Assembly (NCBI GenBank): GCA_032622095.1
Contig: CP136064.1
Span: 6,875,512-6,939,511 of the forward strand
Direction: 5' to 3'
Length of the DNA: 64,000 bases
Origin: Siphonodentalium dalli
Lineage: Eukaryota; Mollusca; Scaphopoda; Gadilida; Siphonodentaliidae
Part shown: positions 1,300 to 62,464 of the stretch, in pieces
Position numbering within the stretch: the stretch's first letter is position 1
How the letters are laid out: every line of letters starts with the position of its first letter
Notes under the pieces: generated by a model
Databases searched by the model: none
What the model saw: the letters and a program-made list of their open reading frames with translations, nothing else
Told to the model about the DNA's origin: nothing
Translations under genes and position numbers: made by a program

Positions 1300-1684
1300 T
1301 TAACCCTTTACCCAACAGAACCACCCTGTGCCAATGCATTCTCTTATATATGCGAGTCGACCATAGGTCGCCTCGCATATATAAGAGAATGCATTGGATT
1401 AACACATTAAAAATTATAAAATTGTTAAAGAATGTAAGGAAAAATGGTAAAAAGTGTTTTAGGCCAATGCATTCTCTTATATATGCGAGGCGACCTATGG
1501 TCGACTCGCATATATAAGAGAATGCATTGGCACAGGGCATAACTGTAACCATCACAATGTGGTCAATGAGCCGGTTCCAATGATATCCATATTTGTATGT
1601 TTTTATTGAGACAGACCCAAGATAATTTAGGCTGTTGCAGCTTTATTTGGCCGTTTTTGGCCGGTTTGTTGGGTAAAGGGTTAA
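1300..1684. mobile_element. TTAA-flanked piggyBac-like MITE with two HP-A hairpins, copy 2
   Basis: A 385-bp element with perfect 18-bp ends TTAACCCTTTACCCAACA and their reverse complement, including the TTAA target duplication. It holds HP-A hairpins at 1330-1397 and 1463-1531 in opposite orientation, and the internal sequence matches copy 1 at 145-535. The TTAA target and CCC start fit the piggyBac superfamily (family knowledge). No transposase is encoded. Confidence 0.88.
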
Positions 1685-4814: not shown

Positions 4815-5250
4815 TCCTCGATTAGCAGGAAATTGCTGAACAAAGGTCACTCACGTGCGATTAAAATATAAAATGGAAAATCAATCGGCAAAATGGCAGC
4901 ATATATTACTAATACCTCTCGGAAGAGTTGTGATAAACATTTCCCTGCAGGGAGCCCCACACATATATAGAAGCATATAGAAGAGTGTCGTCTGCTCGTG
5001 TTTGTATGGGGCTCTGTATGGGTGAAATTATAAAATTGTTAAAGAATACAAGAAAAAATTATTAAAATTGTACAAAATTGTTAGGCCAATGCATTCTCTT
5101 ATATAAGCGAGGCGACCTATGGTCGACTCGCATATATTAGAGAATGCATTGGCACAGGGTACAATCGTACGACCAGGCACGTGTTGAAACTCAATATCAT
5201 TTTTTCTTTCTCAGAAGGGGGTCTTTTGGTGTTTAGTATATTATAGAGAT
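4815..5250 (+). repeat. Duplicated segment G, copy 2 (occupied site)
   Basis: Copy of 3300-3690 interrupted by the hairpin element at 4943-5159. Homology resumes at TACAATCGTACGACCAGG immediately after the element. The long hairpin that ends copy 1 is absent here. Confidence 0.7.
4943..5159 (-). mobile_element. Solo HP-B/HP-A hairpin element
   Basis: A 217-bp element running from CCCTGCAGGGAGCCCC (HP-B, 4943-5024) through an AT-rich spacer to an HP-A hairpin (5085-5153) and a terminal GGCACAGGG. It is the mirror image of the element at 9221-9457. The right flank starts TA. Comparison with segment G copy 1 supports insertion at or next to a TA. No protein is encoded. Confidence 0.8.
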
Positions 5251-7928: not shown

Positions 7929-9930
7929 GTATGTATTATGGGTAACCAATAAGTGGTAAGTGGGTGTCTGACCAGGTAACACATCATGTAGGTTTAGCGA
8001 AAATCACACCTAGCATCCCGGGATGACAGTAAAAAGTTAAAATGAAATGCTGGCTGACGGCCTGAAGGCTTTTTGATATGTCAAATTAGGATAACTTGAA
8101 AGAAAAATTGCCTGAAACCAATTATTCATATACATTTAATCACAAAGTGAAGTTGGTACCAAATTTATGAATAACAAGAGCAAGAAGAGGGAATCTGCAG
8201 AGCATATGAAAATAGGGGGGGGGGTAAAATAAGGGAGCAGTGACCCAATTTTGTGCAGAAACCTGATTCCTGGTTCACTTGTTATAAATTTAGGATGGAG
8301 AGCAGTGGCCCCGGGGCGGTTTTACTAAATTTGGAAAATAATTTAGAACGTACGCGCCAAAATATCTCAGTTAATCAAATCCAAAAGTTAAAATTTATAT
8401 TTTATAAATGAGATTATCAAAGAAGGAAGAGAGAAACAAGCCAATAAGATCTTCATCAGTTGCAAGTTGCTAACCCGTGCCATACTAAACGTATTCTGCT
8501 TAGGCCTCACATTCTCTGGAAAGATTATCAATTTAATCATTGTGTTAGTTTCTTTAGAAAGTTTCTTTTTCTTTTTTAATTTAGCTTCTCTATATCCCCA
8601 ATTGGCAGATGAAACAATGCATAATCGAGGAGCCCAATGGGTGCACATCACCATCTTTACCATCTGGGAACTTAAATCAGTGTTTAGGTCTCAACATAGC
8701 AGATGAGGCCATGCATAATGAGGTCCCCAGAGGGTGAATTTAGTGATGTTAGTGGCGCAAAATCATGTAAAAAGTAAAAACTTTTCGACCTTTACTTGCA
8801 GGACCAGGTATGTTTTGGCTGTAACGTCTTATTCGAGTCCTTTTCTAACAACGTCACTGATGCCTCGATTCAAGAATATGTCGCCAAGATTGCTCAAACT
8901 CTCAGCGTCGGGGAACGTCTATCGCGACTCGAAATACTTTTAATAGAAGGAACGATACCCGACGTAGCCAAGTCAATCCAAGATTTTCTCGAGCCGAATC
9001 ATGCTTGTTCGAATTTGGGAATGTGCCAAGCTGTACCAATCGTCAACGAACACACACTCAGAACATGTGGGGTTTGCATCGAAAGCGTCTTGAATTCCCT
9101 ACAGTATGTTCAGGAGAATGCAGAAATCATGGCGCCACTAATAGATGAGTACGTACGACGGTCGGTTCATTACAAGGTGAGCCACTACTTGTATAAGAAT
9201 ATATATATTATAGAGTAATACCCTGTGCCAATGCATTCTCTTATATATGCGAGTCGACCATAGGTCGCCTCGCATATATAAGAGAATGCATTGGCCTAAC
9301 AAATTTTATATTATTTTTATAACTGCTAAAAAATGTAAAAAAAAATGAACATATCGTGATTTTATACAATCTAATTACCCGTATGGAGCCTCTCACATAC
9401 ATGAGCAGACGACACTCAGCTATACAAGCTGCCACCTGTATGGGGCTCCCTACAGGGTGTTTTATCATTTTGTTTTCATTTTTTAGCCTCACACAGACAA
9501 TCCGACTTACCCAACCTTAGTGGCTAAAATTCTTCCGGACATTCTGACTCGTGTGTGGCGGGCAGATGATCCACAAGAAAATTGCCTTTCAGTAGACATA
9601 TGCCTGGAAACAACAAAAAAGGACAACGAAGAAAGTCAGATTAACGCAGACGACAAACAGACGCATAACAACGGTATTATGAAGAAGGAAACTTCCGGTC
9701 GTAACATCAATCTTGATTGGCTGTTGAGACCAAATATATTTATAGATGTTTGCTCAAGTTGTCGAGTGGCGATAGAACTAATTCAAATTCCAATTATTGT
9801 TGTGCTTTCTACACCGTGTTTATTAGCGCCTAATGCAATGGCCTGCTTCAATTCTGTTTTGAGCTTTTATTTTCCAAATTTCGGTCCGTTCTTTGTCAGT
9901 ATTTGTCCTGGCCTGGGTCTGTGTGATTGA
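7830..9930 (+). CDS. Secreted triple saposin-B-domain protein, three exons
   Basis: Exons 7830-7928, 8802-9176 and 9487-9930, all joined in phase 0, give 305 residues. Residues 1-16 form a hydrophobic signal peptide (MFALFIFALIGYIHTA). Three saposin-like domains follow. Domain 1 has C37/C40 and C102/C108 (ACSNLGMC). Domain 2 has C122/C125 and C191/C197. Domain 3 has the full six-cysteine pattern C247, C250, C269, C278, C298, C304, ending CPGLGLC. Domains 1 and 2 lack the inner C3-C4 pair. NVT at residue 50 is a possible glycosylation site. Saposin-like proteins are secreted or lysosomal lipid-binding or membrane-active helical bundles (family knowledge); this one's target is unknown. ATG 7830 is preferred over the out-of-frame ATG at 7819 because only it gives a signal peptide and joins exon 2. 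Introns carry repeats, and intron 2, which splits domain 2, carries a hairpin element. An AATAAA lies 64 bp after the stop. Confidence 0.8.
7951..8125 (+). repeat. Dispersed repeat H, copy 1 (in intron 1)
   Basis: About 170 bp resembling 60548-60710. Both contain GTAAGTGGGT, AGCGAAAATCACA, CTGACGG and TGTCAAATTAGG in the same order. There is no coding frame. Probably an old SINE- or MITE-like repeat. Confidence 0.6.
8700..8757 (+). repeat. Half copy of the 21.6-kb hairpin MITE
   Basis: ATAATGAGGTCCCCAGAGGG and GAATTTAGTGATG match one arm of the inverted repeat at 21634-21877. Only one arm is recognisable here, inside intron 1. Confidence 0.5.
8802..9176 (+). CDS. Exon 2: saposin domain 1 and first half of domain 2
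   Basis: It follows the acceptor TTACTTGCAG (8792-8801) and ends AAG before the donor GTGAGC (9177). It encodes 125 residues including CFGC, ACSNLGMC and TCGVC. Reading continues open past the donor for a few codons, but the next exon restores the expected ENCLSVDIC closure of domain 2. Confidence 0.8.
9221..9457 (+). mobile_element. Solo HP-A/HP-B hairpin element in intron 2
   Basis: A 237-bp element starting CCCTGTGCC. HP-A lies at 9227-9295, then an AT-rich spacer, then a diverged HP-B (9378-9457) ending CTACAGGG. It occupies most of intron 2 (9177-9486), leaving about 44 bp at the donor side and 29 bp at the acceptor side. The left flank is TA. Confidence 0.8.
9487..9930 (+). CDS. Exon 3: end of saposin domain 2, linker, domain 3 and stop
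   Basis: The acceptor ends at 9486 (TTTTTTAG). It encodes 147 residues plus TGA. After NCLSVDIC there is an acidic, Asn/Gln/Lys-rich linker (residues about 200-235), then domain 3 with CSSC and CPGLGLC. The protein stops one residue after the last cysteine. Confidence 0.8.
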   Translation, partial: PHTDNPTYPTLVAKILPDILTRVWRADDPQENCLSVDICLETTKKDNEESQINADDKQTHNNGIMKKETSGRNINLDWLLRPNIFIDVCSSCRVAIELIQIPIIVVLSTPCLLAPNAMACFNSVLSFYFPNFGPFFVSICPGLGLCD

Positions 9931-12793: not shown

Positions 12794-12966
12794 AAACTTA
12801 GTTATGGTATATCATAAATATGCTTGAGAAGATCTAGATATCACTCGCGATAAAACAGGGGTGCGAACCCTGGCCACAGGGCCTGAAATATTGCCAGAAA
12901 ATATGCCAGTATCTGAAAACACATAATCCTTTTAGAACGGGAGCTGCGCTGGTACAGCAATAAAGA

Positions 12967-13024
12967 CCCTGTGCCAATGCATTATCATATATACGGTCGA
13001 CTTGCATCAATTCATCAGCCTAAC
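12967..13024 (+). repeat. Decayed HP-A hairpin
   Basis: CCCTGTGCCAATGCATTATC begins a diverged HP-A copy. The right arm is eroded, but the following CCTAACAATTTT spacer is still recognisable. Confidence 0.65.
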
Positions 13025-14643: not shown

Positions 14644-14949
14644 GTAAATCAGCCCTAGCATTTTAAACGAAAATCGCCAAACAACCCGTAATGTTAACTC
14701 TGATCTTCCTGCGCTTAAATGCTGCCTCGCACGAACCAGTAAACCACAAAGCCAAGTGGATCGGATGATTTGGGGACATACCAAATGGGGTAGATTTGGT
14801 CAAAAACATGAGCAAAAATCCTCTAAATTATTCTGATTTTTGCTTATGAGGGCAGCCATCTTCGATTTCATCACGAGACATAAACAATTGGAAAAGAGTC
14901 CAACTATGTAGCATACTCCATCCCGACGTTGAACATACACATCCCATAT

Positions 14950-15270
14950 AGGAGAGTGTCGTCTGCTCATGTTTGTCTGGGGCTCTGTATGGGTGAAATT
15001 ACTCGACCAAAAAATTCAATCTATTATCTCTTTTAACTGTGGTTTGTAGTGTTTGTTCTACTTCTTACAAATTCTTTTTTACCATTTTTTCTTACATTCT
15101 TTAACAATTTTATAATTTTTTCTTACATTTTTAAATATTTTTTATAATATTTTTCTACATTCTTTGACAATTTTATCATTTTTAATATGTTTTAAGCCAA
15201 TGCATTCTCTTATATATGCGAGGCGACCTATGGTCGACTCGCATATATAAGAGAATGCATTGGCACAGGG
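14950..15270 (-). mobile_element. Truncated HP-B plus HP-A element, long-spacer subfamily
   Basis: It starts inside HP-B (14950-14995), then an AT-rich spacer of about 200 bp, then HP-A (15196-15264) and GGCACAGGG. The spacer carries an extra segment with ACTCGACCAAAAAATTC that other copies lack but 15815-16289 shares, so these two form a subfamily. Confidence 0.75.
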
Positions 15271-15814: not shown

Positions 15815-16289
15815 ACCCTGTGCCAATGCATTCTCTTATATATGCGAGTCGACCATAGGTCGCCTCGCATATATAAGAGAATGCATTGGCCTAACAATTT
15901 GTTATCATGTTTTTTAAATAAATGTTTCTTACAATTTTTAGGACATAAAATAAAAAAAACATCCATTACCATGCAGAGAACCCCACACACATATAGAAGC
16001 ATATAGAAGAGTGTCGTCTGCTCATGTTTGTCTGGGGCTCTGTATGGGTGAAATTACTCGACCAAAAAATTCAATCTATTATCTCTTTTAAATGTGGTTT
16101 GTAGTGTTTGTTCTACTTCTTACAAATTCTTTTTTACCATTTTTTCTTACATTCTTTAACAATTTTATAATTTTTTCTTACATTTGTTTTACATTTTTTA
16201 TAATATTTTTCTACATTCTTTGACAATTTTATCATTTTTAATATGTTTTAAGCCAATGCATTCTATTATATATGCGAGTCGACCATAGG
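15815..16289. mobile_element. HP-A/HP-B/partial HP-A composite element
   Basis: Starts TACCCTGTGCC with HP-A at 15822-15890, an AT-rich spacer, HP-B at 15969-16050, the same long spacer as in 14950-15270, and then a half HP-A (16252-16289) broken at its centre. The right half of the last hairpin is missing. Confidence 0.75.
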
Positions 16290-17750
16290 GTCATTGTGGC
16301 ATTTTGATGAACGGTGGGCGAGGATTCATACGATGCCATGCAAACAGGAATCAAAGCAAAATTCACTCACAATATGGTGACAGAATATGAACGGCAACAT
16401 GAATTTTAAAAGCATAACTATTTACTAAAAGCTAACGGCGTGAGACGTAACATGTCGGTACTCCCATGTGTAACGGTGCTACCAACACATTGCCTACGGG
16501 ACTTTGCTAACCCATTTCCCAAAATTTTGATGGAGTTAAAATAAAGGATTATGTTCACTTTTATTACAAATCACAAACCAGACACATTGATGCATGAATG
16601 TTAAGAGTATAATCCACGATGGATAACGTTGGAAATACTAAATGTGAAATTTATAAAGGTTTTTAAAATCTATTTTTTCGAATCCAAATCCAACAAACAC
16701 AAAGTCCATATCTAAGAACAATATTGGAATGTTCTGAACACTGTGAACAATAAACACATATTCATATTTACTCAGAACCACTTATTTACAAACTGTTAAT
16801 TTACTTTCTCAGAAATGCTGTCCAGAAGGTGACACTTGATGGGTTGATTATGGGTCACCTTGTGTCCAGTGCAGCTGGAATTGTTATCAGCCTGTGTGGC
16901 CACTGGACCATAAGGGATTATTCCACTATCGGTGACCTATTTACAAGGTGGTCTGCTAAATCACTGTGTACATACGACACCGGAAGCAGTTAGCATCCCG
17001 AGTGTTTTATGCTACACTGGGTGCATATATCAGGCTTTTTCTCATAGACTTTGACACTTTCCAAATACGAACCTCCGCATGTGCACGGCCGATATGTTGT
17101 AGTTAATGGTAGTTATTGTCACTTTGACATAAATTGAAAGGTTCATTAATCAATTGACAATTTAGGCGAATACTCGCACGAAAAGTCATCACCTAATTTT
17201 GTTTTAAAATAGGAAAAAATAGAATAGCGCATAAATCTAACAAACAAATGGGTATAATATACATATGATGATTTGATGTGCGTTATATACAACGTATCTG
17301 CTATCAATAAGGCAGTTTCTTGGCAAAAAAATCCGATTAAAAAAAAGCCAGGTGTACGGCAGTATGCAAATGTATAGCCAGTGGACAAGTGTACTGCAGT
17401 ATGCGAGTTCGGTGTACGGCATCATGTTTTAAAAACACAAATCTAGGCCTTGCGCACTGATTTGGGCATGTACCTGTGTATTGAACTTCCCTCTAACGCG
17501 AGTGGTGTGAATTTTGAACATATTTGAGCACAATTTTGCTCTATTTGCACATATAAATCGTTCGTTTTTTCCATGATTAATAAGACTTTGTGGCACAAAA
17601 GAGGTGAATGAATTGGCATGCGACTGGTTATTAGATTGACCACTGCCGATTCTCACAGAAAGATGTGTCTGACACCAGAATGTGAAAGAAATTATATAAT
17701 TAATATATGTTCGTGTTTGATGGGGTGGGTGGGATTGCTGTGTGTGCGAC
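16290..17750. other. No gene recognised; weak inverted similarity to 30.4-31.3 kb
   Basis: Short words of this region recur in reverse complement near 30460-31265: CGAAAAAA...AACCTCTATAAA-like words around 16640-16690 and GTACGGCAGTATGC-like words around 17345-17420. This suggests an old dispersed repeat. No convincing gene. Confidence 0.35.
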
Positions 17751-29000: not shown

Positions 29001-29737
29001 GCTCGGGACACGTGGATAGTTACGTTGTCCTCGTTTACAGTAATTCGTCGACCCTGCTCACGACACAGCTCGGGACACGTGGATAGTTACGTTGTCCTCG
29101 TTTACAGTAATTCGTCGACCCTGCTCACGACACAGCTCGGGACACGTGGATAGTTACGTTGTCCTCGTTTACAGTAATTCGTCGACCCTGCTCACGACAC
29201 AGCTCGGGACACGTGGATAGTTACGTTGTTCTCGTTTACAGTGATTCGTCGACCCTGCTCACGACACAGCTCGGGATACGTGGATAGTTACGTTGTCCTC
29301 GTTTACAGTAATTCGTCGACCCTGCTCACGACACAGCTCGGGACACGTGGATAGTTACGTTGTTCTCGTGTACAGTGATTCGTCGACCCTGCTCACGACA
29401 CAGCTCGGGATACGTGGATAGTTACGTTGTCCTCGTTTACAGTAATTCGTCGACCCTGCTCACGACACAGCTCGGGACACGTGGATAGTTACGTTGTCCT
29501 CGTTTACAGTAATTCGTCGACCCTGCTCACGACACAGCTCGGGACACGTGGATAGTTATGTTGTCCTCGTTTACAGTAATTCGTCGACCCTGCTCACGAC
29601 ACAGCTCGGGACACGTGGATAGTTACGTTGTCCTCGTTTACAGTAATTCGTCGACCCTGCTCACGACACAGCTCGGGACACGTGGATAGTTACGTTGTCC
29701 TCGTTTACAGTAATTCGTCGATAGTGCTCACGATCAA
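29001..29737. repeat. 67-bp minisatellite, 11 copies
   Basis: Units start GCTCGGGACACGTGGATAG at 29001, 29068, 29135 and every 67 bp onward for eleven units. Each carries CACGTG and GTCGAC. Units differ at few positions, such as TTGTCCTCG to TTGTTCTCG in a subset that alternates in the middle of the array, suggesting amplification of multi-unit blocks. Confidence 0.95.
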
Positions 29738-29957
29738 GCTCGGGAATCATGGACAATGTTAGTACTGTGATTGCTTATCATTGTTTTATCTCGATGTTTC
29801 ATTTTGATGTTTCCTTGTGGAGTGCCCAACAGCTTCGCCAAATTTATTTCCCTCGTATTCACAGTAACAGCATTTGCACAACGTTGGATATCTTTCAGGC
29901 TGAAATGAGAAACAATGCGGTGTTTACTCATCATGCATACCTCATTAGGAACAATTA

Positions 29958-30422
29958 TTGTGACCCGCCATATCAAATCCAGTCGGAAGTCGGGATTTTT
30001 TTTACCCTGTGCCAATGCATTCTCTTATATATGCGAGTCGACCATAGGTCGCCTCGCATATATAAGAGAATGCATTGGCTTAACAATTTTTTATCATGTT
30101 TTTTAAATAAATGTTTCGTACAATTTTTAGGACATAAACTAAAAAAAAACATCCATTACCCTGCAGGGAGCCCCACACATATATAGAAGCACATAGAAGA
30201 GTGTCGTCTGCTCATGTTTGTCTGGGGCTCTGTATGGGTGAAATTATAAAATTGTTAAAGGATACAAGAACAAATTATTAAAATTGTAAAAAATTGTTAG
30301 GCCAATTGATTCTCTTATATATGCGAGGCGACCTATGGTCGACTCGCATATATAAGAGAATGCATTGGCACAGGGTAAAAAAAATCCCGACTTCCGACTG
30401 GATTTGATATGGCGGGTCACAA
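29958..30422. mobile_element. Full composite hairpin element: TIR/HP-A/HP-B/HP-A/TIR
   Basis: A 465-bp element. Terminal repeats start TTGTGACCCGCCATATC and continue through AGTCGGAAGTCGGGA into HP-A, so each inverted end spans about 120 bp including the hairpin. HP-A hairpins are at 30011-30079 and 30301-30369 in opposite orientation. HP-B is at 30159-30240. The flanks do not show an unambiguous target duplication. No protein is encoded. It is the most complete reference copy of this architecture in the window; related ends occur at 35796 and 61469. Confidence 0.85.
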
Positions 30423-35354: not shown

Positions 35355-35796
35355 TGTGACCCTGTGCCAATGCATTTTCTTATATATGCGAGTCGACCAT
35401 AGGTCGCCTCGTATATATAAGAGAATGCATTGGCCTAACAATTTTTTACAATTTTAATAATTGTTTCTTGTATTCTTTAACAATTTTATAATTTCACCCA
35501 TACAGAGCCCCAGACAAACATGAGCAGACGACACTCTTCTATATGCTTCTATATATGTGTGGGGCTCCCTGCAGGGTAATGGATGTTTTTTATTTGATGT
35601 CCTAAAAATTGTAAGAAACATTTATTTAAAAAAAATGATAAATTTATTTTAGGCCAATGCCAATATACAAGAGAAGGCCAATGCATTCTCTTATATATGC
35701 GATGCGACCTATGGTCGACTCGCATATATAAGAGAATGCATTGGCACAGGGTAAAAAATTCCCGACTTACGACTGGATTTTATATGGCGGGTCACA
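35355..35796. mobile_element. Composite hairpin element, TGTGACC-ended
   Basis: Left end TGTGACC joined directly to CCTGTGCC (the rest of the outer repeat is deleted). HP-A at 35365-35433, HP-B at 35495-35576, second HP-A at 35677-35745, then the full right outer repeat ending GGCGGGTCACA at 35796. A partial duplication of the HP-A start (GGCCAATGCCAATATAC) precedes the second hairpin. Confidence 0.8.
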
Positions 35797-38699: not shown

Positions 38700-41600
38700 C
38701 TACCCTCTCAATGTGAAATGTGTGTCCATACCTTCTCATGGTGCCATTTATATATATACCCTCTCATGGTACCATTTGTGTCGCTACCCTCTCATGTTGT
38801 CACTTGTGTAGCTACCTTCTCGTGGTGTCATTAGTGTAGCTACGATCGCATTGTAACATTTGAGTCGCTACCCTCTCGATGTGGCATTTGTGTCGCTACC
38901 TTCTCATGGTGCCATTTTTTATATCTACCCTCTCATGGTATCATTTGCGTTGCTACCCCCTCATGGCGCCATTTGTGTCGCTACCCTTTCATGGTACCAT
39001 TTGTGTTGCTACCCTCTCACGGTACCATTTGTGTCGCTACCCTCTCATTGTGCCATGTGTGTTGTTACCCTCTCATGGTGCCATTTGTGTCGTTGCCCTC
39101 TGATGGTACAATTTTTGTCGCTACCCTCTCATGGTACCATTTGTGTCGTTGCCCTCTGATGGTACAATTTGTGTCGCTACGCTATCATTGTGCCATTTGT
39201 GTCGCTACCCTCTCATTGTACCATTTGTGTTGTTACCCTCTCGTGGTGCCATTTGTGTCGTTGCCCTCTGATGGTACAATTTGTGTCGCTACCCTCTCAT
39301 GGTGCCATTTGTGTCACAATCCTCTCATTGTAACATTTGTGTTGTTACCCTCTCATGGTGCCATTTGTGTCGTTGCCCTCTGATGGTACAATTTGTGTCG
39401 CTACGCTCTCATGGTGCCATTTGTGTCGCTACCCTCTCATGGTACAATTTGTGTCGCTACGCTCTCATGGTACCATTTGTGTTGTTACCCTCTCGTGGTG
39501 CCATTTGTGTCGTTGCCCTCTCATGGTACAATTTGTGTCGCTAGGCTCTCATGGTGCCATTTGTATCGCTACTCTCTCATAGTGACATTTGTGTCGCTAC
39601 CCTCTCATGGTGACATTTGTGTCGCTACCCTCTCATGGTGACATTTGCGTCGCTACCCTGTCATGGTACCATTTGCGTCGCTACCCACTCATGGTACCAT
39701 TTGTGTCGCTACCCTCTCATGGTGACTTTTGCGTCGCTACCCTCTCATCGCGACATTTGTATCGCTACCCTCTTATGGTACCATTTGTGTATCTACCCTC
39801 TCATGGTATCATTTGTGTCGCTATCCTCTCATGGTATCATTTGTGTCGCTACCTTCTCATGGTGCAATTTGTGTCGCTACCCTCTCATGGTACCATTTGT
39901 GTCGCTACCCTCTCATGGTACCAATTGTGTCGCTACCCTCTCATGGTACCAATTGTGTCGCTACCCTCTCATCGTACCAATTGTGTCGTTACCCTCTCAT
40001 GGTACCATTTGTGTCGCTACCCTCTCATGGTACCAATTGTGTCGCTACCCTCTCATCGTACCAATTGTGTCGCTACCCTCTCATGGTACCATTTGTGTCG
40101 CTACCCTCTTATGTAGCCATTTGTGTCGCTACCTTCTCATGTTACCATTTGGTCCATACCCTCTCATAGTACCATTTGTGTCGCTACCCTCTCATGCTGC
40201 TATTTGCGTCCCTACCCTCTCATGGTGACATTTGTGTCGCTACCCTCTAATGGTGATATTTGTGTCGCTACCTCTCATGGTGACATTTGCGTCGCTACCG
40301 TCTCATGGTGCAATTTGTATCGCTACCCTCTCATGGTGACATTTGTATCGCTACCCTCTCATGGTGCCGTATATGTAGCTACCCTCTCATGCTGCCATTT
40401 ATGTCGCTACCCTCTCATGTTACCATTTGTGTCGCTACCATCTCATGGTGCCATTCGTGTCGCTACCCTCGCATTGTACAATTTGTGTTGTTACCCTCTC
40501 GTGGTGTCATTTGTGTCGTTGCCCTCTGATGGTACAATTTGTGTCGCTACCATCTCATGGTACCATTTGTGTCGTTACCTTCTCATGGTGCAATTTGTGT
40601 CGCTACCCACTCATGGTGCCATTTATGTAGCTACCCTCTCATGGTGATATTTGTGTCGCTACCTCTCATGGTGACATTTGCGTCGCTACCCTCTTATGTA
40701 GCCATTTGTGTCGCTACCTTCTCATGTTACCATTTGTGTCCATACCCTCTCATGGTACAATTTGTGTCGCTACCCTCTCATGCTGCCATTTGCGTCGCTA
40801 CCCTCTCATGGTGACATTTGTGTCGCTACCCTCTCATGGTGATATTTGTGTCGCTACCTCTCATGGTGACATTTGCGTCGCTACCCACTCATGGTGCAAT
40901 TTGTATCGCTACCTTTTCATGCTGCCATTTGTGTCGCTAACCTCTCATGGTGACATTTGTGTCGCTACCCTCTCATGGTGACATTTGTGTCGCTACCCTC
41001 TCATGGTGACATTTGTATCGCTACCCTCTCATGCTGCCATTTGTGTCCTACCCTATCATGCTGCCATTTGTGTCGCTACCCTCTGATGGTGCCGTATATG
41101 TAGCTACCGTCTCATGTTACCATTTGTGTCCCTACCCTCTCATGTTACCATTTGTGTCCCTACCCTCTCATGGTACCATTTGTGTCGCTACCCTCTCATG
41201 GTACCATTTGTGTCGCTATCCTCTCATGGTGTCATTTGTGTCCCTACCATCTCATGGTACCATTTGTGTCGCTACCCTCTCATTGTACAATTTGTGTTGT
41301 TACCCTCTCATGGTGCAATTTGTATCGCTACCCTCTCATGGTACCATTTGTGTCGCTACCCTCTCATGGTACCATTTGTGTCGCTACCCTCTCATGTTAC
41401 CATTTGTGTCCCTATCCTCTCATGGTACCATTTGTGTCGCTACCCTATAATGGTACCATTTGTGTCGCTACCCTCTAATGGTACAATTTGTGTCGCTACC
41501 CTCTCATGTTACCATTTATGTCCCTACCCTATCATGTTACCATTTGTGTCCCTACCCTCTCATGTTAACATTTGTGTCCCTACCCTCTCATGGTACCATT

Positions 41601-44600
41601 TGTGTCGCTACCCTATCACGGTACCATTTGTGTCGCTACCCTCTAATGGTATCATTTGTGTCGCTACCCTCTCATGTTACCATTTGTGTCGCTACCCTAT
41701 AATGGTACCATTTGTGTCCCTACCCTCTAATGGTACCATTTGTGTCGCTACCCTCTCATGGTGCAATTTGTGTCGCTACCCTCTCATGGTACCATTTGTG
41801 TCTCTAACCTCTCATGGTACCATTTGTGTCGCTACCCTCTAATGGTACCATTTGTGTCGCTACCCTCTCATGGTACCATTTGTCTCGCTACCCTCTCATG
41901 TTACCATTTGTGTCCCTACCCTCTCATGGTACCATTTGTGTCGCTACCCTCTCATGGTACCATTTGTGTCGCTACCCTCTAATGGTACCATTTGTGTCGC
42001 TACCCTCTCATGTTACCATTTGTGTCGCTACCCTCTAATTGTACCATTTGTGTCCCTACCCTCTAATGGTACCATTTGTGTCGCTACCCTCTCATGGTGC
42101 AATTTGTGTCGCTACCCTCTCATGGTACCATTTGTGTCGCTACCCTCTCATGGTACCATTTGTGTCGCTACCCTCTCATGGTACCATTTGTGTCGCTACG
42201 CTCTCATATGACCATTTGTGTCCCTACCCTCTCATGTTAACATTTGTGTCCCTACCCTATCATGGTACCATTTGTGTCCCTACCCTCTCATGGTACCATT
42301 TGTGTCGCTACCCTCTCATTGTTCAATTTGTGATGTTACCCTCTCATGGTGCAATTTGTGTCGCTACCCTCTCATGGTACCATTTGTGTCGCTACCCTCT
42401 CATTGTACCATTTGTGTTCCTACCCTCTCATGGTACCATTTGTGTCCCTACTCTCTCATGGTGCCATTTGTGTCGCTACCCTCTCATTGTACAATTCGTG
42501 TTGTTACCCTCTCATGGTGCCATTTGTGTCGTTGCCCTCTGATGGTACAATTTGTGTCGCTACCCTCTCATGGTGTCATTTGTGTCACTACCCTCTCATG
42601 GTACCATTTGTGTCGCTACCCTCTCATGGTATCATTTGCGTTGCTACCCCCTCATGGCGCCATTTGTGTCGCTACCCTTTCATGGTACCATTTGTGTTGC
42701 TACCCTCTCACGGTATTATTTGTGTCGCTACCCTCTCATTGTGCCATGTGTGTTGTTACCCTCTCATGGTGCCATTTGTGTCGTTGCCCTCTGATGGTAC
42801 AATTTTTGTCGCTACCCTCTCATGGTACCATTTGTGTCGTTGCCCTCTGATGGTACAATTTGTGTCGCTACGCTCTCATTGTGTCATTTGTGTCGCTACC
42901 CTCTCATTGTACCATTTGTGTTGTTACCCTCTCGTGGTGCCATTTGTGTCGTTGCCCTCTGATGGTACAATTTGTGTCGCTACCCTCTCATGGTGCCATT
43001 TGTGTCACTATCCTCTCATTGTAACATTTGTGTTGTTACCCTCTCGTGGTGCCATTTGTGTCGTTGCCCTCTGATGGTACAATTTGTGTCGCTACGCTCT
43101 CATGGTGCCATTTGTGTCGCTACCCTCTCATGGTACAATTTGTGTCGCTACGCTCTCATGGTACCATTTGTGTTGTTACCCTCTCGTGGTGCCATTTGTG
43201 TCGTTGCCCTCTCATGGTACAATTTGTGTCGCTACGCTCTCATGGTGCCATTTGTATCGCTACTCTCTCATAGTGACATTTGTGTCGCTACCCTCTCATG
43301 GTGACGTTTGTGTCGCTACCCTCTCATGGTGACATTTGCGTCGCTACCCTTTCATGGTACAATTTGCGTCGCTACCCACTCATGGTACCATTTGTGTCGC
43401 TACCCTCTCATGGTGACTTTTGCGTCGCTACCCTCTCATCGCGACATTTGTATCGCTACCCTCTTATGGTACCATTTGTGTATCTACCCTCTCATGGTAT
43501 CATTTGTGTCGCTATCCTCTCATGGTATCATTTGTGTCGCTACCTTCTCATGGTGCAATTTGTGTCGCTACCCTCTCATGGTACCATTTGTGTCGCTACC
43601 CTCTCATGGTACCAATTGTGTCGCTACCCTCTCATCGTACCAATTGTGTCGCTACCCTCTCATGGTACCATTTGTGTCGCTACCCTCTTATTTAGCCATT
43701 TGTGTCGCTACCTTCTCATGTTACCATTTGGTCCATACCCTCTCATAGTACCATTTGTGTCGCAACCCTCTCATGCTGCCATTTGCGTCCCTACCCTCTC
43801 ATGGTGACATTTGTGTCGCTACCCTCTAATGGTGATATTTGTGTCGCTACCTCTCATGGTGACATTTGCGTCGCTACCGTCTCATGGTGCAATTTGTATC
43901 GCTACCCTCTCATGCTGCCATTTATGTCGCTACCCTCTCATGGTGCCGTATATGTAGCTACCCTCTCATGGTACCATTTATGTCGCTACCCTCTCATGTT
44001 ACCATTTGTGTCGCTACCCTCTCATGCTGCCATTTATGTCGCTACCCTCTCATGTTACCATTTGTGTCGCTACCATCTCATGGTGCCATTCGTGTCGCTA
44101 CCCTCGCATTGTACAATTTGTGTTGTTACCCTCTCGTGGTGTCATTTGTGTCGTTGCCCTCTGATGGTACAATTTGTGTCGCTACCATCTCATGGTACCA
44201 TTTGTGTCGTTACCTTCTCATGGTGCAATTTGTGTCGCTACCCACTCATGGTGCCATTTATGTAGCTACCCTCTCATGGTGATATTTGTGTCGCTACCTC
44301 TCATGGTGACATTTGCGTCGCTACCCTCTTATGTAGCCATTTGTGTCGCTACCTTCTCATGTTACCATTTGTGTCCATACCCTCTCATGGTACAATTTGT
44401 GTCGCTACCCTCTCATGCTGCCATTTGCGTCGCTACCCTCTCATGGTGACATTTGTGTCGCTACCCTCTCATGGTGATATTTGTGTCGCTACCTCTCATG
44501 GTGACATTTGCGTCGCTACCCACTCATGGTGCAATTTGTATCGCTACCTTTTCATGCTGCCATTTGTGTCGCTAACCTCTCATGGTGACATTTGTGTCGC

Positions 44601-47600
44601 TACCCTCTCATGGTGACATTTGTGTCGCTACCCTCTCATGGTGACATTTGTATCGCTACCCTCTCATGCTGCCATTTGTGTCCTACCCTATCATGCTGCC
44701 ATTTGTGTCGCTACCCTCTGATGGTGCCGTATATGTAGCTACCGTCTCATGTTACCATTTGTGTCCCTACCCTCTCATGTTACCATTTGTGTCCCTACCC
44801 TCTCATGGTACCATTTGTGTCGCTACCCTCTCATGGTACCATTTGTGTCGCTATCCTCTCATGGTGTCATTTGTGTCCCTACCATCTCATGGTACCATTT
44901 GTGTCGCTACCCTCTCATTGTACAATTTGTGTTGTTACCCTCTCATGGTGCAATTTGTATCGCTACCCTCTCATGGTACCATTTGTGTCGCTACCCTCTC
45001 ATGGTACCATTTGTGTCGCTACCCTCTCATGTTACCATTTGTGTCCCTATCCTCTCATGGTACCATTTGTGTCGCTACCCTATAATGGTACCATTTGTGT
45101 CGCTACCCTCTAATGGTACAATTTGTGTCGCTACCCTCTCATGTTACCATTTATGTCCCTACCCTCTCATGTTACCATTTGTGTCCCTACCCTCTCATGT
45201 TAACATTTGTGTCCCTACCCTCTCATGGTACCATTTGTGTCGCTACCCTATCACGGTACCATTTGTGTCGCTACCCTCTAATGGTATCATTTGTGTCGCT
45301 ACCCTCTCATGTTACCATTTGTGTCGCTACCCTATAATGGTACCATTTGTGTCCCTACCCTCTAATGGTACCATTTGTGTCGCTACCCTCTCATGGTGCA
45401 ATTTGTGTCGCTACCCTCTCATGGTACCATTTGTGTCTCTAACCTCTCATGGTACCATTTGTGTCGCTACCCTCTAATGGTACCATTTGTGTCGCTACCC
45501 TCTCATGGTACCATTTGTCTCGCTACCCTCTCATGTTACCATTTGTGTCCCTACCCTCTCATGGTACCATTTGTGTCGCTACCCTCTCATGGTACCATTT
45601 GTGTCGCTACCCTCTAATGGTACCATTTGTGTCGCTACCCTCTCATGTTACCATTTGTGTCGCTACCCTCTAATTGTACCATTTGTGTCCCTACCCTCTA
45701 ATGGTACCATTTGTGTTGCTACCCTCTCATGGTGCAATTTGTGTCGCTACCCTCTCATGGTACCATTTGTGTCGCTACCCTCTCATGGTACCATTTGTGT
45801 CGCTACCCTCTCATGGTACCATTTGTGTCGCTACGCTCTCATATGACCATTTGTGTCCCTACCCTCTCATGTTAACATTTGTGTCCCTACCCTATCATGG
45901 TACCATTTGTGTCCCTACCCTCTCATGGTACCATTTGTGTCGCTACCCTCTCATTGTTCAATTTGTGATGTTACCCTCTCATGGTGCAATTTGTGTCGCT
46001 ACCCTCTCATGGTACCATTTGTGTCGCTACCCTCTCATTGTACCATTTGTGTTCCTACCCTCTCATGGTACCATTTGTGTCCCTACTCTCTCATGGTGCC
46101 ATTTGTGTCGCTACCCTCTCATTGTACAATTCGTGTTGTTACCCTCTCATGGTGCCATTTGTGTCGTTGCCCTCTGATGGTACAATTTGTGTCGCTACCC
46201 TCTCATGGTGTCATTTGTGTCACTACCCTCTCATGGTACCATTTGTGTCGCTACCCTCTCATGGTATCATTTGCGTTGCTACCCCCTCATGGCGCCATTT
46301 GTGTCGCTACCCTTTCATGGTACCATTTGTGTTGCTACCCTCTCACGGTATTATTTGTGTCGCTACCCTCTCATTGTGCCATGTGTGTTGTTACCCTCTC
46401 ATGGTGCCATTTGTGTCGTTGCCCTCTGATGGTACAATTTTTGTCGCTACCCTCTCATGGTACCATTTGTGTCGTTGCCCTCTGATGGTACAATTTGTGT
46501 CGCTACGCTCTCATTGTGCCATTTGTGTCGCTATCCTCTCATTGTACCATTTGTGTTGTTACCCTCTCGTGGTGCCATTTGTGTCGTTGCCCTCTGATGG
46601 TACAATTTGTGTCGCTACCCTCTCATGGTGCCATTTGTGTCACTATCCTCTCATTGTAACATTTGTGTTGTTACCCTCTCGTGGTGCCATTTGTGTCGTT
46701 GCCCTCTGATGGTACAATTTGTGTCGCTACGCTCTCATGGTGCCATTTGTGTCGCTACCCTCTCATGGTACAATTTGTGTCGCTACGCTCTCATGGTACC
46801 ATTTGTGTTGTTACCCTCTCGTGGTGCCATTTGTGTCGTTGCCCTCTCATGGTACAATTTGTGTCGCTACGCTCTCATGGTGCCATTTGTATCGCTACTC
46901 TCTCATAGTGACATTTGTGTCGCTACCCTCTCATGGTGACGTTTGTGTCGCTACCCTCTCATGGTGACATTTGCGTCGCTACCCTTTCATGGTACAATTT
47001 GCGTCGCTACCCACTCATGGTACCATTTGTGTCGCTACCCTCTCATGGTGACTTTTGCGTCGCTACCCTCTCATCGCGACATTTGTATCGCTACCCTCTT
47101 ATGGTACCATTTGTGTATCTACCCTCTCATGGTATCATTTGTGTCGCTATCCTCTCATGGTATCATTTGTGTCGCTACCTTCTCATTGTGCAATTTGTGT
47201 CGCTACCCTCTCATGGTACCATTTGTGTCGCTACCCTCTCATGGTACCAATTGTGTCGCTACCCTCTCATCGTACCAATTGTGTCGCTACCCTCTCATGG
47301 TACCATTTGTGTCGCTACCCTCTTATTTAGCCATTTGTGTCGCTACCTTCTCATGTTACCATTTGGTCCATACCCTCTCATAGTACCATTTGTGTCGCAA
47401 CCCTCTCATGCTGCCATTTGCGTCCCTACCCTCTCATGGTGACATTTGTGTCGCTACCCTCTAATGGTGATATTTGTGTCGCTACCTCTCATGGTGACAT
47501 TTGCGTCGCTACCGTTTCATGGTGCAATTTGTATCGCTACCCTCTCATGGTGCCGTATATGTAGCTACCCTCTCATGGTACCATTTATGTCGCTACCCTC

Positions 47601-50600
47601 TCATGGTGACATTTGTGTCGCTACCCTCTAATGGTGATATTTGTGTCGCTACCTCTCATGGTGACATTTGCGTCGCTACCGTTTCATGGTGCAATTTGTA
47701 TCGCTACCCTCTCATGCTGCCATTTATGTCGCTACCCTCTCATGGTGCCGTATATGTAGCTACCCTCTCATGGTACCATTTATGTCGCTACCCTCTCATG
47801 TTACCATTTGTGTCGCTACCATCTCATGCTGCCATTTATGTCGCTAACCTCTCATGTTACCATTTGTGTCGCTACCATCTCATGGTGCCATTCGTGTCGC
47901 TACCCTCGCATTGTACAATTTGTGTTGTTACCCTCTCGTGGTGTCATTTGTGTCGTTGCCCTCTGATGGTACAATTTGTGTCGCTACCATCTCATGGTAC
48001 CATTTGTGTCGTTACCTTCTCATGGTGCAATTTGTGTCGCTACCCACTCATGGTGCCATTTATGTAGCTACCCTCTCATGGTGATATTTGTGTCGCTACC
48101 TCTCATGGTGACATTTGCGTCGCTACCCTCTTATGTAGCCATTTGTGTCGCTACCTTCTCATGTTACCATTTGTGTCCATACCCTCTCATGGTACCATTT
48201 GTGTCGCTACCCTCCCATGCTGCCATTTGCGTCGCTACCCTCTCATGGTGACATTTGTGTCGCTACCCTCTCATGGTGATATTTGTGTCGCTACCTCTCA
48301 TGGTGACATTTGCGTCGCTACCCACTCATGGTGCAATTTGTATCGCTACCTTCTCATGCTGCCATTTGTGTCGCTAACCTCTCATGGTGACATTTGTGTC
48401 GCTACCCTCTCATGGTGACATTTGTGTCGCTACCCTCTCATGGTGACATTTGTATCGCTACCCTCTCATGGTGCAATTTGTGTCGCTACCCTCTCATGGT
48501 ACCATTTGTGTCGCTACCCTCTCATGGTACCATTTGTGTCGCTACCCTCTCATGGTACCATTTGTGTCGCTACCCTCTCATATGACCATTTGTGTCCCTA
48601 CCCTCTCATGTTAACATTTGTGTCCCTACCCTATCATGGTACCATTTGTGTCCCTACCCTCTCATGGTACCATTTGTGTCGCTACCCTCTCATTGTTCAA
48701 TTTGTGATGTTACCCTCTCATGGTGCAATTTGTGTAGCTACCCTCTCATGGTACCATTTGTGTCGCTACCCTCTCATTGTACCATTTGTGTCCCTACCCT
48801 CTCATGGTACTATTTGTGTCCCTACTCTCTCATGGTGCCATTTGTGTCGCTACCCTCTCATTGTACAATTCGTGTTGTTACCCTCTCATGGTGCCATTTG
48901 TGTCTTTGCCCTCTGATGGTACAATTTGTGTCGCTACCCTCTCATGGTGTCATTTGTGTCACTACCCTCTCATGGTACCATTTGTGTCGCTACACTCTCA
49001 TGGTACAATTTGTGTCGCTACCCTCTCATGGTGCCATTTGAGTCGCTACCCTCTCATGGTATCATTTGTGTTGTTAACCTCTCATGGTGCCATTTCTGTC
49101 GCTACCCTCTGATGGTACAATTTGTGTCTCTACCCTCTCGTGGTGCCATTTGTGTCGCTACCCTCTCATCGTGCCATTTGTGTCGCTACCCTCTCATGGT
49201 ACAATTTGTGTCGCTACACTCTCATGCTGCCATTTGTGTCGCTACGCTCGCATGGTACCATTTGTGTTGTTACCCTCTCGTGGTGTCATTTGTGTCGTTG
49301 CCCTCTCATGGTGCCATTTATGTAGCTACCCTCTCATGGTGATATTTGTGTCGTTACCCTCTCATGGTGCCATTTATGTAGCTACCCATTCATGGTGATA
49401 TTTGTGTCGCTACGTCTCATGGTGACATTTGCGTCGCTACCCTCTCATGGTACCATTTGTGTATCCACCCTCTCATGCTGCCATTTGTGTCGCTACCTTC
49501 TCATGGTGCAATTTGTGTCGCTACCCTCTCATGCTGCCATTTGTGTCGCTACCCACTCATGGTACCATTTGTGTCGCTACCCTCTCATGGTACCAATTGT
49601 GTCGCTACCCTCTCATCGTACCAATTGTGTCGCTACCCTCTCATGGTACCATTTGTGTCGCTACCCTCTTATGTAGCCATTTGTGTCGCTACCTTCTCAT
49701 GTTACCATTTGGTCCATACCCTCTCATAGTACCATTTGTGTCGCTACCCTCTCATGCTGCCATTTGCGTCCCTACCCTCTCATTGTGACATTTGTGTCGC
49801 TACCCTCTAATGGTGATATTTGTGTCGCTACCTCTCATGGTGACATTTGCGTCGCTACCGTCTCATGGTGCAATTTGTATCGCTACCATCTCATGCTGCC
49901 ATTTGTGTCGCTACCCTTTCATGGTGACATTTGTATCGCTACCCTCTCATGCTGCCATATATGTCGCTACCCTCTCATGTTACCATTTGTGTCGCTACCA
50001 TCTCATGGTGCCATTCGTGTCGCTACCCTCGCATTGTACAATTTGTGTCGTCACCCTCTCGTGGTGTCATTTGTGTCGTTGCCCTCTGATGGTACAATTT
50101 GTGTCGCTACCATCTCATGGTACCATTTGTGTCGTTACCTTCTCATGGTGAAATTTGTGTCGCTACCCACTCATGGTGCCATTTATGTAGCTACCCTCTC
50201 ATGGTGATATTTGTGTCGCTACCTCTCATGGTGACATTTGCGTCGCTACCCTCTTATGTAGCCATCTGTGTCGCTACCTTCTCATGTTACCATTTGTGTC
50301 CATACCCTCTCATGGTACCATTTGTGTCGCTACCCTCTCATGCTGCCATTTGCGCGCTACCCTCTCATGGTGACATTTGTGTCGCTACCCTCTCATGGTG
50401 ATATTTGTGTCGCTACCTCTCATGGTGACATTTGCGTCGCTACCCACTCATGGTGCAATTTGTATCGCTACCTTCTCATGCTGCCATTTGTGTCGCTAAC
50501 CTCTCATGGTGACATTTGTGTCGCTACCCTCTCATGGTGACATTTGTGTCGCTACCCTCTCATGGTGACATTTGTATCGCTACCCTCTCATGCTGCCATT

Positions 50601-53600
50601 TGTGTCCTACCCTCTCATGCTGCCGTATATGTAGCTACCGTCTCATGCTGCCATTTGTGTCCCTACCCTCTCATGGTACCATTTGTGTCGCTACCCTCTC
50701 ATGGTGCCGTATATGTAGCTACCGTCTCATGCTGCCATTTGTGTCCCTACCCTCTCATGGTACCATTTGTGTCGCTACCCTCTCATGGTACCTTTTGTGT
50801 CGCTATCCTCTCATGGTGTCATTTGTGTCCCTACCCTCTCATGGTACCAATTGTGTCGCTACCCTCTCATTGTACAATTTGTGTTGTTACCCTCTCATGG
50901 TGCAATTTGTATCGCTACCCTCTCATGGTACCATTTGTGTCGCTACCCTCTCATGGTACCATTTGTGTCCCTATCCTCTCATGGTAACATTTGTGTCGCT
51001 ACCCTCTCATGGTACCATTTGTGTCGCTACCCTATAATGGTACCATTTGTGTCGCTACCCTCTAATGGTACAATTTGTGTCGCTACCCTCTCATGTTACC
51101 ATTTATGTCCCTACCCTCTCATGTTACCATTTGTGTCCCTACCCTCTCATGTTAACATTTGTGTCCCTACCCTCTCATGGTACCATTTGTGTCGCAACCC
51201 TCTCATGGTACCATTTGTGTCGCTACCCTCTCATTGTACCATTTGTGTCCCTGCCCTCTCATGGTACCATTTGTGTCCCTACCCTCTCATGGTGCCATTT
51301 GTGTCGCTACCCTCTCATTGTACAATTCGTGTTGTTACCCTCTCATGGTGCCATTTGTGTCGTTGCCCTCTGATGGTACAATTTGTGTCGCTACCCTCTC
51401 ATGGTGCCATTTGTGTCGTTGCCCTCTCATGGTACAATTTGTGTCGCTACCCTCTCATGGTGCCATTTGTGTCGCTACCCTGTCATGGTGCCATTTGGTG
51501 TCACTACCCTCTCATGGTACCATTTGTGTCGCTACCCTCTCATGGTGCCATTTGAGTAGCTACCCTCTCATGGTATCATTTGTGTTGTTACACTCTCATG
51601 CTGCCATTTGTGTCGCTACGCTCTCATGGTGCCATTTGTGTCGTTGCCCTCTCATGGTGCCATTTATGTAGCTACCCTCTCATGGTGATATTTGTGTCGT
51701 TGCCCTCTCATGGTGCCATTTATGTAGCTACCCATTCATGGTGATATTTGTGTCGCTACCTCCCATGGTGACATTTGCGTCGCTACCCTCTCATGGTACC
51801 ATTTGTGTATCAACCCTCTCATGCTGCCATTTGTGTCGCTACCTTCTCATGGTGCAATTTGTGTCGCTACCCTCTCATGCTGCCATTTGTGTCGCTACCC
51901 ACTCATGGTACCATTTGTGTCGCTACCCTCTCATGTTACCATTTGTGTCGCTACCCTCTCATGCTGCCATTTGTTTCGCTACCCTCGTATGTAGCCATTT
52001 GTGTCGCTACCCTCTCATGGTACCATTTGTGTCGCTACCCTCTCATGCTGCCATTTGTGTCGCTACCCTCTTATGTAGCCATTTGTGTCGCTACCTTCTC
52101 ATGGTGCAATATGTATCGCTACCCTCTCATGGTACCATTTGTGTCCCTACCCTCTCATGCTGCCATTTGTTTCGCTACCCTCTTATGTAGCAATTTGTGT
52201 CGCTACCCTCTCATGGTGCCATTTGTGTCGCTACCCTCTCATGTTACCATTTGTGTCCCTACCCTCTCATGGTACCATTTGTGTCGCTACCCTCTCATTG
52301 TACAATTTGTGTTGTTACCCTCTCATGGTGCCATTTGTGTCGTTGCCCTCTGATGGTACAATTTGTGTCGCTACCCTCTCATGGTGCCATTTGTGTCGTT
52401 GCCCTCTGATGGTACAATTTGTGTCGCTACCCTCTCATGGTGCCATTTGTGTCGTTGCCCTCTGATGGTACAATTTGTGTCGCTACCCTCTCATGGTGCC
52501 ATTTGTGTCGCTACCCTCTGATGGTACAATTTGTGTCGCTACGCTCTCATGGTGCCATTTGTGTCGCTACCCTCTCATGGTACCATTTGTGTCGCTACCC
52601 TCTGATGGTACAATTTTTGTCGATACGCTCTCATGGTACAATTTGTGTCGCTACCCTCTCATGGTGCCATTTGTGTCGCTACCCTCTCATTGTACAATTT
52701 GTGTCGATACGCTCTCATTGTACAATTTGTGTCGATACCCTCTCATTGTACAATTTGTGTCGATACCTTCTCATGGTGCCATTTGTGACGTTGCCCTCTC
52801 ATGGTGCCATTTATGTAGCTACCCTCTCATGGTGATATTTGTGTTGTGGCCCACTCATGGTGACATTTGTGTCGTTACCCTCTCATGGTGATATTTGTGT
52901 CGTTGCCCTCTCATGGTGACATTTGCGTCGCTACCCTCTCATGGTGACATTTGTGTCGCTACCCTCTCATGGTGATATTTGTGTCGTTGCCCTCTCATGG
53001 TGACATTTGCGCGCTACTCTCTCATGGTACCATTTGTGTATCAACCCTCTCATGCTGACATTTGTATCGCTACCCTCTCATGGAACCATTTATGTAGCTA
53101 ACCTCTCATGGTGATATTTGCGGCGCTACTCTCTCATGGTGCCATTTATGTAGCTACCCTCTCATGGTGATATTTGTGTCGCTACCCTCTCATGGTGACA
53201 TTTGTGTCGCTATCCTCTCATGGTACCATTTGTGTCGCTACCCTCTTATGTAGCCATTTGTATCGCTACCCTCTCATATTACCATTTGTGTCGCCACCCT
53301 CTCATGGTGCCATTTGCGTCGCTACCCTCTCATTGTGCAATTTGTGTTGTTACCCTCTCATAGTGCCATTTGTGTCGTTTCCCACTGATGGTACAATTTG
53401 TGTCGCTACGCTCTCGTGGTGCCATTTATGTCGCTACCCTCTCATGGTACCATTTATGTCGCTACCCTTTCATGGTGCCATTTGTGTCGGCTACCCTCTC
53501 ATGGTACAATTTATGTCGCTACCCTCTCATGGTGCCATTTGTGTATCTACCCTCTCATGGTGATATTTATGTCGCTACCCTCTCATGGTGCCATTTGTGT

Positions 53601-57298: not shown

Positions 57299-57457
57299 CT
57301 GTGCCAATGCATTGTTTTATAAGGCGCCTCGCATATATAAGAAAACGCATTGGCCTAACAATACTTACATTGACCATGTAAGCCAGTGCATTATATTATA
57401 TATGCGACCGCTCCCTATGGGAGACTCGCATATATAAAAGACTGCACTGGCATAGGG
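57299..57457. mobile_element. Diverged short HP-A pair
   Basis: An HP-A with a deleted left arm (57303-57353) and a strongly diverged HP-A (57382-57451, with GACCGCTCCCTATGGGAGAC at its centre) form a 159-bp inverted pair with a short spacer and no HP-B. Probably an older subfamily member. Confidence 0.65.
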
Positions 57458-58001
57458 TATTTAATGATGCACTATCGCAGCTCCCGTCATGAAAATGTTA
57501 ACATGTGGATATCATAGCAGTTAGGTAATAACAACCAAAGCGGTACAAATGTTATTTCCAGGATTTAGTAACGTGTTTCCAGGATTTAGTAACGTGGGTA
57601 TACGCGTGTCTCGGATTTGTCATAAATGATCACGTGACACTATTGTATATATTCTCTGTATGTCTAAATGTTGCATGATATTATTGGACAATACAGTCTG
57701 TGTCTATGTGTCGCATGCTATTATTGGACAATACAATCTATGTCGATGGGTCTGGCTCAAGGGGTATATCTATAGATATTACACGTTGGGCACATTAATG
57801 GGGACTATATTACTTTGAATGTGTAGGGAAATTGTAAAAATAAACATTTTATAAATAGTTTGCTTCTAACATTTTGGAAATATCAACGGTTGGAAACCTT
57901 CCTATAGCAATTAGAAAAAGTACAACACAGGCAAATAGAACTTCGCCGTCTTGGGAATTCAATGGGTCCAGTGAGAAATTGAAAACACACCAGCATAAAC
58001 C
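57458..58001. other. Small direct duplications; no gene
   Basis: TTTCCAGGATTTAGTAACGTG occurs in two adjacent copies (about 57553-57595), and a roughly 47-bp segment ending TATTATTGGACAATACA is duplicated (about 57656-57740). No supported gene. Confidence 0.6.
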
Positions 58002-62191: not shown

Positions 62192-62286
<95 letters not shown>

Positions 62287-62451: not shown

Positions 62452-62464
62452 GTAAACATGGCGA

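Follow-up and report, generated by a model that had tools for sequence, protein, structure and literature searches.

The Galileo elements of Drosophila (P superfamily) carry long inverted repeats which, in the excerpted text of two reports, grow by uptake of sequence into both ends, a growth proposed as the seed of new subfamilies (PMC4168063, PMC3573991); in D. willistoni they are given target duplications of 7-8 bp (PMC4168063). Tm1, a Mutator/Foldback element of root-knot nematodes, is described in the excerpt of its report as having composite modular inverted repeats, 9-bp target duplications and tandem internal motifs (PMC3169594). At induced DNA breaks in yeast, foldback priming leads to templated inverted insertions of adjacent sequence that, as excerpted, are mostly 5-34 bp long (PMC11724301). 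How MITEs come by matching ends has long been an open question, and among the matches listed in a search of open-licence PubMed Central none described such ends as arising through inverted copying of a flank. Here we describe hairpin-bearing elements from a window of 64,000 nt (the whole stretch of DNA analysed, G000:C4:6875512-6939511) and from the genome that contains it (2.23 Gb in 9 contigs), which its size and gene remains suggest to be animal-like.

The GTGACCC-type element and its recurrence

The feature at 29960-30420 (+ strand, 461 bp) is a full-length element of the GTGACCC type (class iv), which can be written GTGACCC-A-B-A'-GGGTCAC and whose parts follow one another as outer arm, HP-A, spacer, HP-B, spacer, HP-A' and outer arm. 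The left outer arm, GTGACCC...GGGATTTTTTTT, occupies 29960-30003 (+ strand) and is followed by the HP-A1 palindrome at 30011-30079 (+ strand), by the weakly self-complementary HP-B module, which was located by profile search in the middle of the element at 30158-30239 (+ strand), by HP-A2 at 30301-30369 (- strand) and by the right outer arm at 30377-30420 (- strand). Inverted-repeat comparison, profile search and DNA folding identify HP-A2 as the reverse complement of HP-A1. The stretch 29958-30422 as a whole has inverted arms of 143 nt, 96% complementary, around two 69-nt HP-A palindromes. By its structure the element is a MITE, being short, bounded by terminal inverted repeats and without coding capacity; the nested palindromes within its inverted arms also give it the structure of the foldback-like class. 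Among the listed frames of at least 110 aa a single one crosses it (29725-30186), running from stop to stop and starting outside the element. The window copy has no clear target duplication at its ends, such a duplication having been either lost or never present. Rfam at the gathering score gave no RNA-family match in the 64,000-nt window, close copies of the element had no exact match among viral contigs and bacterial and archaeal genomes, and six core sequence strings of the element occurred in no paper of open-licence PubMed Central.

The initial annotation described HP-A and HP-B as self-complementary modules that recur about 21 and 10 times in the window. These counts are correct, as nhmmer located 20 HP-A places, of which the one at 16252 is a half hairpin, and 10 HP-B places, of which two are partial; an HP-A arm fragment at 12966-12993 can be added. 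Allowing up to 3 mismatches, we found the HP-A arm GCCAATGCATTCTCTTATAT 40 times in the window, compared with 0.01 expected by chance. Self-complementarity is strong for HP-A, which forms a near-perfect hairpin when its DNA folding is compared with 200 shuffles (z -15.6 for HP-A1 and -12.7), but only weak for HP-B (z -1.4), for which 17 of 200 shuffles fold equally well.

The whole class iv unit recurs in the genome: with 40 places scored of 582 candidates, 39 non-window copies are 94-98% identical to the window copy. We took these 39 copies with 200-bp flanks and recognised both ends in 36 of them, dropping L024, L030 and L047, in which the ends were not recognised; the length from GTGACCC to GGGTCAC is 450-468 bp in the 36. 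Exact 4-bp target duplications flank 23 of the 36 (ATAT in 19, ATTT in 2, AAAT in 1 and AATT in 1) and 16 of a second set of 20, drawn from 39 new places found in a second genome search, 13 of the 16 being ATAT. An exact 4-bp duplication, mostly ATAT, is thus present in 39 of the 56 copies inspected. That these are true direct duplications follows from the existence of non-palindromic cases (ATTT, AAAT, TTAT). The class iv target is not TTAA, the exact duplications being ATAT, ATTT, AAAT, AATT or TTAT. In three of the 56 copies (L028, L029 and L106) the flanks carry direct duplications of 43, 36 and 13 bp and not a plain 4-bp duplication. Class iv units are mobile or formerly mobile.

A 28-mer of the outer arm has 17,320 exact matches in the genome, up to two per element, and hence at least 8,660 elements carry it. 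The 27-base arm of HP-A is matched exactly 270,224 times, each intact hairpin accounting for two of the matches. A random sample of 20 stretches of 10 kb (200 kb; the first 20 of 60 drawn) contained 25 HP-A modules, 3 HP-B modules and 4 outer arms. In the random stretches we also observed palindromes without HP-A, 217-246 bp long (L052:1483-1707, L059:2237-2453 and L054:1999-2244). Unpaired outer arms, which number 62 among the first 100 listed of the 17,320 matches, were examined for another element with the GTGACCC end; all 20 arms drawn from these 62 adjoin HP-A, and the idea was rejected.

One hairpin core within several element types

The arrangements named earlier for the window were found: A-A' pairs within TTAA MITEs, triplets with TGTGACCC ends and a 518-bp palindrome. 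A TTAA-type MITE of class i with CCCTTTACCCAACA ends and an A-A' pair lies at 149-531 (+ strand), where TTAA is seen on the right only, and another of the same class at 1304-1680 (+ strand) is flanked by TTAA on both sides. A diverged A-A' pair at 57303-57459 (+ strand) is a relic of TTAA class ii. At 35356-35795 (- strand) there is another GTGACCC-type copy, with ATTT flanking both sides and a left arm reduced to GTGACCC that abuts TGTGCC, and at 61983-62456 (- strand) an A-B-A' unit occurs without outer arms and with no target duplication seen; its HP-B contains a 99-bp TA-repeat expansion (62185-62283). A partial B joined by a long spacer to A' (14935-15270, + strand) and an A-B-long spacer-A' form recognised from sequence and profile search, whose A' is cut near its tip (15815-16290, + strand), represent a separate subtype, since a 220-bp spacer, 97.7% identical between them, is common to both and absent from the class iv unit. 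The window also holds a 17-kb satellite (38700-55991) with a 28-bp unit in about 618 copies.

Three further forms look like truncations of one unit: B-A' at 4938-5164 (+ strand), the more diverged A-B' at 9219-9458 (- strand) and a left-truncated GTGACCC-type copy at 61201-61468 (+ strand) that reads HP-B - HP-A' - outer arm. The copy at 9219-9458 sits between two open stretches, 8778-9218 and 9487-9930, which resemble neighbouring exons and in which no Pfam family was found at E 0.001. Since HP-A1 and HP-A2 are reverse complements, A-B-A' in either apparent order is one element lying on either strand. For this reason, and because several B-A' and A-B' forms appear truncated, reading nearly every arrangement in the window as a separate cassette event is not supported.

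What does vary is the sequence outside HP-A. Among 21 outer junctions of HP-A in the 200 kb of random genome, 10 are of TTAA class i (both sides counted), 3 of class ii, 1 of class iii and 4 of the GTGACCC type, leaving 3 unclassified, among them a GTGACCC arm that carries a deletion. Class i junctions have CCCAACA on one side and a CAGTTAT-like sequence on the other; class ii has GCGAAAA before the core and, where the ends are seen, CCCTTTCATGAC-like ends; the class iii junction, CCCTTTGAGTGCCAG, was clearly seen once. Exact junctions number 42,722 for class i and 3,588 for class ii genome-wide. TTAA flanks and ends beginning with CCC are found for classes i-iii, as in TTAACCCTTT...GGGTTAA at 1304-1680, and one or both TTAA/CCC-type ends are present in L049, L052, L059 and L063. 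In their flanks and ends the TTAA MITEs of classes i-iii are like elements of the piggyBac kind. Class ii hairpins tend toward lower profile scores, that is, they are more diverged, which suggests, without proving it, that a TTAA element is the older home of HP-A.

HP-A is best described as a palindrome located close to the ends of gene-less, MITE-like and foldback-like elements of the cut-and-paste sort, within their inverted repeats. It is found inside at least four element types, three with TTAA targets and one, GTGACCC, with 4-bp AT-rich targets, all of them mobile or formerly mobile. The proposal that HP-A is joined to different outer ends is thus borne out beyond the window, with four types among the 21 randomly sampled junctions. 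Deletion from one full-length parent does not account for all of the arrangements, given their differing outer ends.

The variety of arrangements might still come from ordinary MITEs, with random nesting, truncation and strand choice giving a cassette look and with the inverted flanks described below being unrelated local rearrangements. The three forms that fit truncation of one unit agree with this account, as does the fact that 54 of the 56 GTGACCC copies have no inverted flank. We nevertheless regard it as doubtful, because the same core stands behind four outer ends, three of which have thousands of exact junctions or arms, and because all three of the inverted copies start at or near the end of a hairpin unit.

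HP-A also reaches into larger relatives. Two neighbouring loci, L073 and L074 (G000:C1, 4.50 and 4.55 Mb), have GTGACCC arms and half an HP-A around a 1.2-kb interior. In L074 this includes an open 177-aa frame of the Bcl-2 family (positions 638-1171 of that locus; PF00452, E 1.7e-13), of which L073 has a broken version, and in both loci the sequence directly outside GTGACCC is likewise inverted. A pattern across this outer junction has 268 exact genome matches, the first 100 listed of which include 39 outward-facing pairs, 17 of them at 5.2-5.8 kb, 18 closer and 4 at more than 10 kb. One of the stretches between such pairs, L138 (G000:C1:90443300-90449140), is a 5.8-kb palindrome with 2.7-kb arms that are 99.6% identical; each arm holds a frame matching a Pox_A32-type packaging ATPase (28.8 bits, cut-off 22.8) and a second frame, a search of viral contigs giving no relative for that frame. 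A GTGACCC arm and half an HP-A lie in the inverted repeats of L138, and in L073, L074 and L138 alike the junction is at the tip of HP-A. The half hairpin is thus part of the long inverted repeats in a family of virus-like character, which may either move the small elements or merely have acquired one of their ends.

Flanking DNA copied in inverted form at three loci

The palindrome in the window, B-x-A-A'-x'-B' at 63236-63753 (no strand assigned), measures 518 bp where 512 bp had been given earlier and is 91% self-complementary. No other place among the 40 scored of 4,441 candidates has both arms. In the same comparison the four paralogues nearest to it match query positions 1-379 only and, when taken with their flanks, all read B-x-A-A' and run into the same right flank. 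They contain the left flank B-x (63240-63374, + strand), which is the source of the inverted copy, and lack the inverted copy itself (63615-63749, - strand), which has been added outside A'. Compared with L068, the inverted B-x is inserted in the window copy directly after GGCACAGGGTATT, and the right flank restarts at AAATTC with a loss of about 10 bp. Because TTTAGCACTGTC-AAATTC, interrupted in the window copy, is contiguous in L068, and because L069-L071 have the same arrangement with one base changed, the window palindrome is the derived state. Its arms are 95.6% identical to each other and each about 95-97% identical to the paralogues; microhomology at the junction, judged by eye, is about 1 bp. 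In L069-L071 the B-x-A-A' unit is flanked by direct repeats of about 50 bp (TTTAGCAYTGTC...).

Inverted local flank was also found beside two of the 56 GTGACCC copies, and the process is therefore uncommon. L018 has 172-bp arms that are 99.4% identical, and L025 has 193-bp arms that are 97.4% identical. The other 34 of the 36 copies in the first set gave a mean of 9.1 matches out of 30 in the inverted-flank comparison versus a null of 8.6, and the 20 further copies showed no inverted flank over the roughly 30 bases compared. With 40 scored of 198 candidates, a complete L018 arm was met twice, both times at its own locus; elsewhere only its first part is matched, over at most 94 bases and at no more than 93% identity. 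The sequence of the L025 arm is that of an old, dispersed repeat, and the nearest copy besides the two local ones is 84% identical (40 scored of 2,716 candidates). In both elements the two ends read ATTT and AAAT, the inverted form of the target duplication, as expected if one flank, together with its half of the duplication, was copied inverted. At L018, L025 and the window palindrome, then, the DNA beside the element has been copied in inverted form onto the other side, and the copy begins no more than a few bases from where a hairpin unit ends. Of the earlier proposal that modules are captured by different outer ends, the mechanism is shown for the window palindrome only, and there as an inverted flank copy rather than as capture by a mobile element.

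Palindromic flanks would also result if elements inserted into the centres of pre-existing palindromes, the tips of hairpins or cruciforms being preferred targets, an explanation first suggested by the inverted flanks in the window. The targets of the GTGACCC type are indeed AT-rich and mostly self-complementary (ATAT), the genome contains many other palindromes and several A-A' units lie between inverted flanks. A core-less palindrome of outer arms, with at most 30 bases between exact arm pieces, was nevertheless matched only twice genome-wide by a pattern that the arms of 25 of 37 known copies could have matched, and both matches are internal-deletion forms that retain a remnant of the core spacer (L072) or of HP-A (L077). 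No complete L018 arm turned up elsewhere (40 scored of 198 candidates), the two L025 arms resemble one another far more than either resembles the other scored copies (40 of 2,716 candidates), the ends of both elements are inverted (ATTT/AAAT) and not directly duplicated, and the four closest paralogues of the window palindrome are one-armed. These empty-site, arm and paralogue comparisons largely refute the explanation for the three loci, and we judge it quite improbable.

Long-read data are known to contain chimeras of reads folded back on themselves, which can yield false palindromes in an assembly. With arms that differ at about 1 of 172 positions, L018 by itself could not exclude this. The arm differences of 4.4% in the window palindrome and 2.6% in L025 are larger than one molecule read twice should leave once an assembly is finished, however, and the right flank of the window palindrome resumes as in its paralogues, so that an assembly artefact is a very remote explanation.

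Growth of the inverted repeats through exchange between copies, whether by conversion or by ectopic recombination, as in Galileo, which in the excerpted reports takes neighbouring sequence into both inverted repeats (PMC3573991, PMC4168063), is possible but in our estimate unlikely. It has some support from linkage between the arms of class iv elements: at column 28 of the arm alignment, which is G or T, both arms have the same base in 36 of 37 copies compared with 18.5 expected, which fits conversion. The G and T subtypes therefore had both arms changed at founding, as expected if one arm was copied from the other. Linkage of this order is absent from the other 22 variable columns, in three of which a minor base is shared in one copy, and arm identity is 96.0% within a copy versus 95.6-96.1% between copies; together these observations indicate that arms are not continuously corrected. 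Against Galileo-like growth at the three loci, what was copied is the flank outside the element and not its interior, and, as no second locus with the complete L018 arm was found (40 scored of 198 candidates), the copy calls for no outside donor. In L041 (G000:C4:79699515-79700375) the right flank repeats 79 bp of the flank of L025, 6 kb away, and the left flank differs; this is possibly a templated insertion from the neighbouring copy.

A possible origin of new ends and its nearest parallels

We think it rather probable, judging by the structure of the products, that hairpin-primed template switching builds new outer ends and that the enlarged units may seed new types. In such an event a strand that stalls or breaks would use the inverted repeats of the element to fold back or to change template, would copy 130-200 bp of one flank and would then rejoin the other flank, and the product of this one step would be a longer element with new matching outer ends. 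Were the copied flank to include an end recognised by a transposase, the enlarged unit could go on to move and found a new type. Flank copying followed by mobilisation, if true, would explain how one hairpin core comes to stand behind several unrelated ends. The shared base at column 28 in both arms and the junctions at the HP-A tip in L073, L074 and L138 count in favour of this account; the rarity of inverted flanks (2 of 56 GTGACCC copies) and the lack of continuing correction between arms weigh against it. The template-switch step is read from product structure, and a product of this kind could also come from conversion or from ectopic recombination. Between flank copying and the emergence of the GTGACCC type no intermediate was found, the 20 sampled unpaired outer arms all being next to HP-A already.

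More tentatively, palindrome-bearing mini-transposons may seed their own termini in a repeated cycle, in which the hairpin breaks or stalls, a flank is copied inverted to the other side and the larger palindrome is at times mobilised by any transposase able to read the doubled end; this would have produced several types from one core and placed a half hairpin in a virus-like family; we hold this wider scheme to be possible and somewhat unlikely. If true, it would link the fragility of palindromes to the birth of new transposon families. What the window offers is a snapshot in which a one-sided end has been made two-sided around a hairpin core, with the one-sided state preserved in four paralogues. 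Two further loci have a doubled local flank, and thousands of copies would allow the rate to be measured.

The elements of classes i-iii resemble piggyBac-kind TTAA MITEs in their TTAA flanks and CCCTTT ends and differ from them in having the palindromic HP-A core near one or both ends. Tm1, as far as its excerpted description goes, likewise has composite inverted repeats built of modules, but with 9-bp duplications and tandem internal motifs, whereas the elements here have 4-bp or TTAA targets and a palindromic module; the 4-bp duplication of the GTGACCC type is thus not that of the Tm1/Mutator foldback elements, nor is it the 7-8 bp of Galileo and the P superfamily. Galileo, in the text excerpted, is alike in that its inverted repeats are enlarged by adjacent sequence at both ends, and unlike in that internal or inserted sequence is recruited, whereas beside the GTGACCC type the outside flank is copied across. 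The yeast insertions are alike in being inverted copies of adjacent sequence; those in the excerpt are mostly 5-34 bp and arise at induced breaks, whereas the copies described here are 130-200 bp long and lie beside mobile elements in an assembled, animal-like genome. Within the excerpted literature, recruitment into both inverted repeats of Galileo is the nearest published idea, and foldback-primed insertion in yeast is the nearest biochemical parallel.
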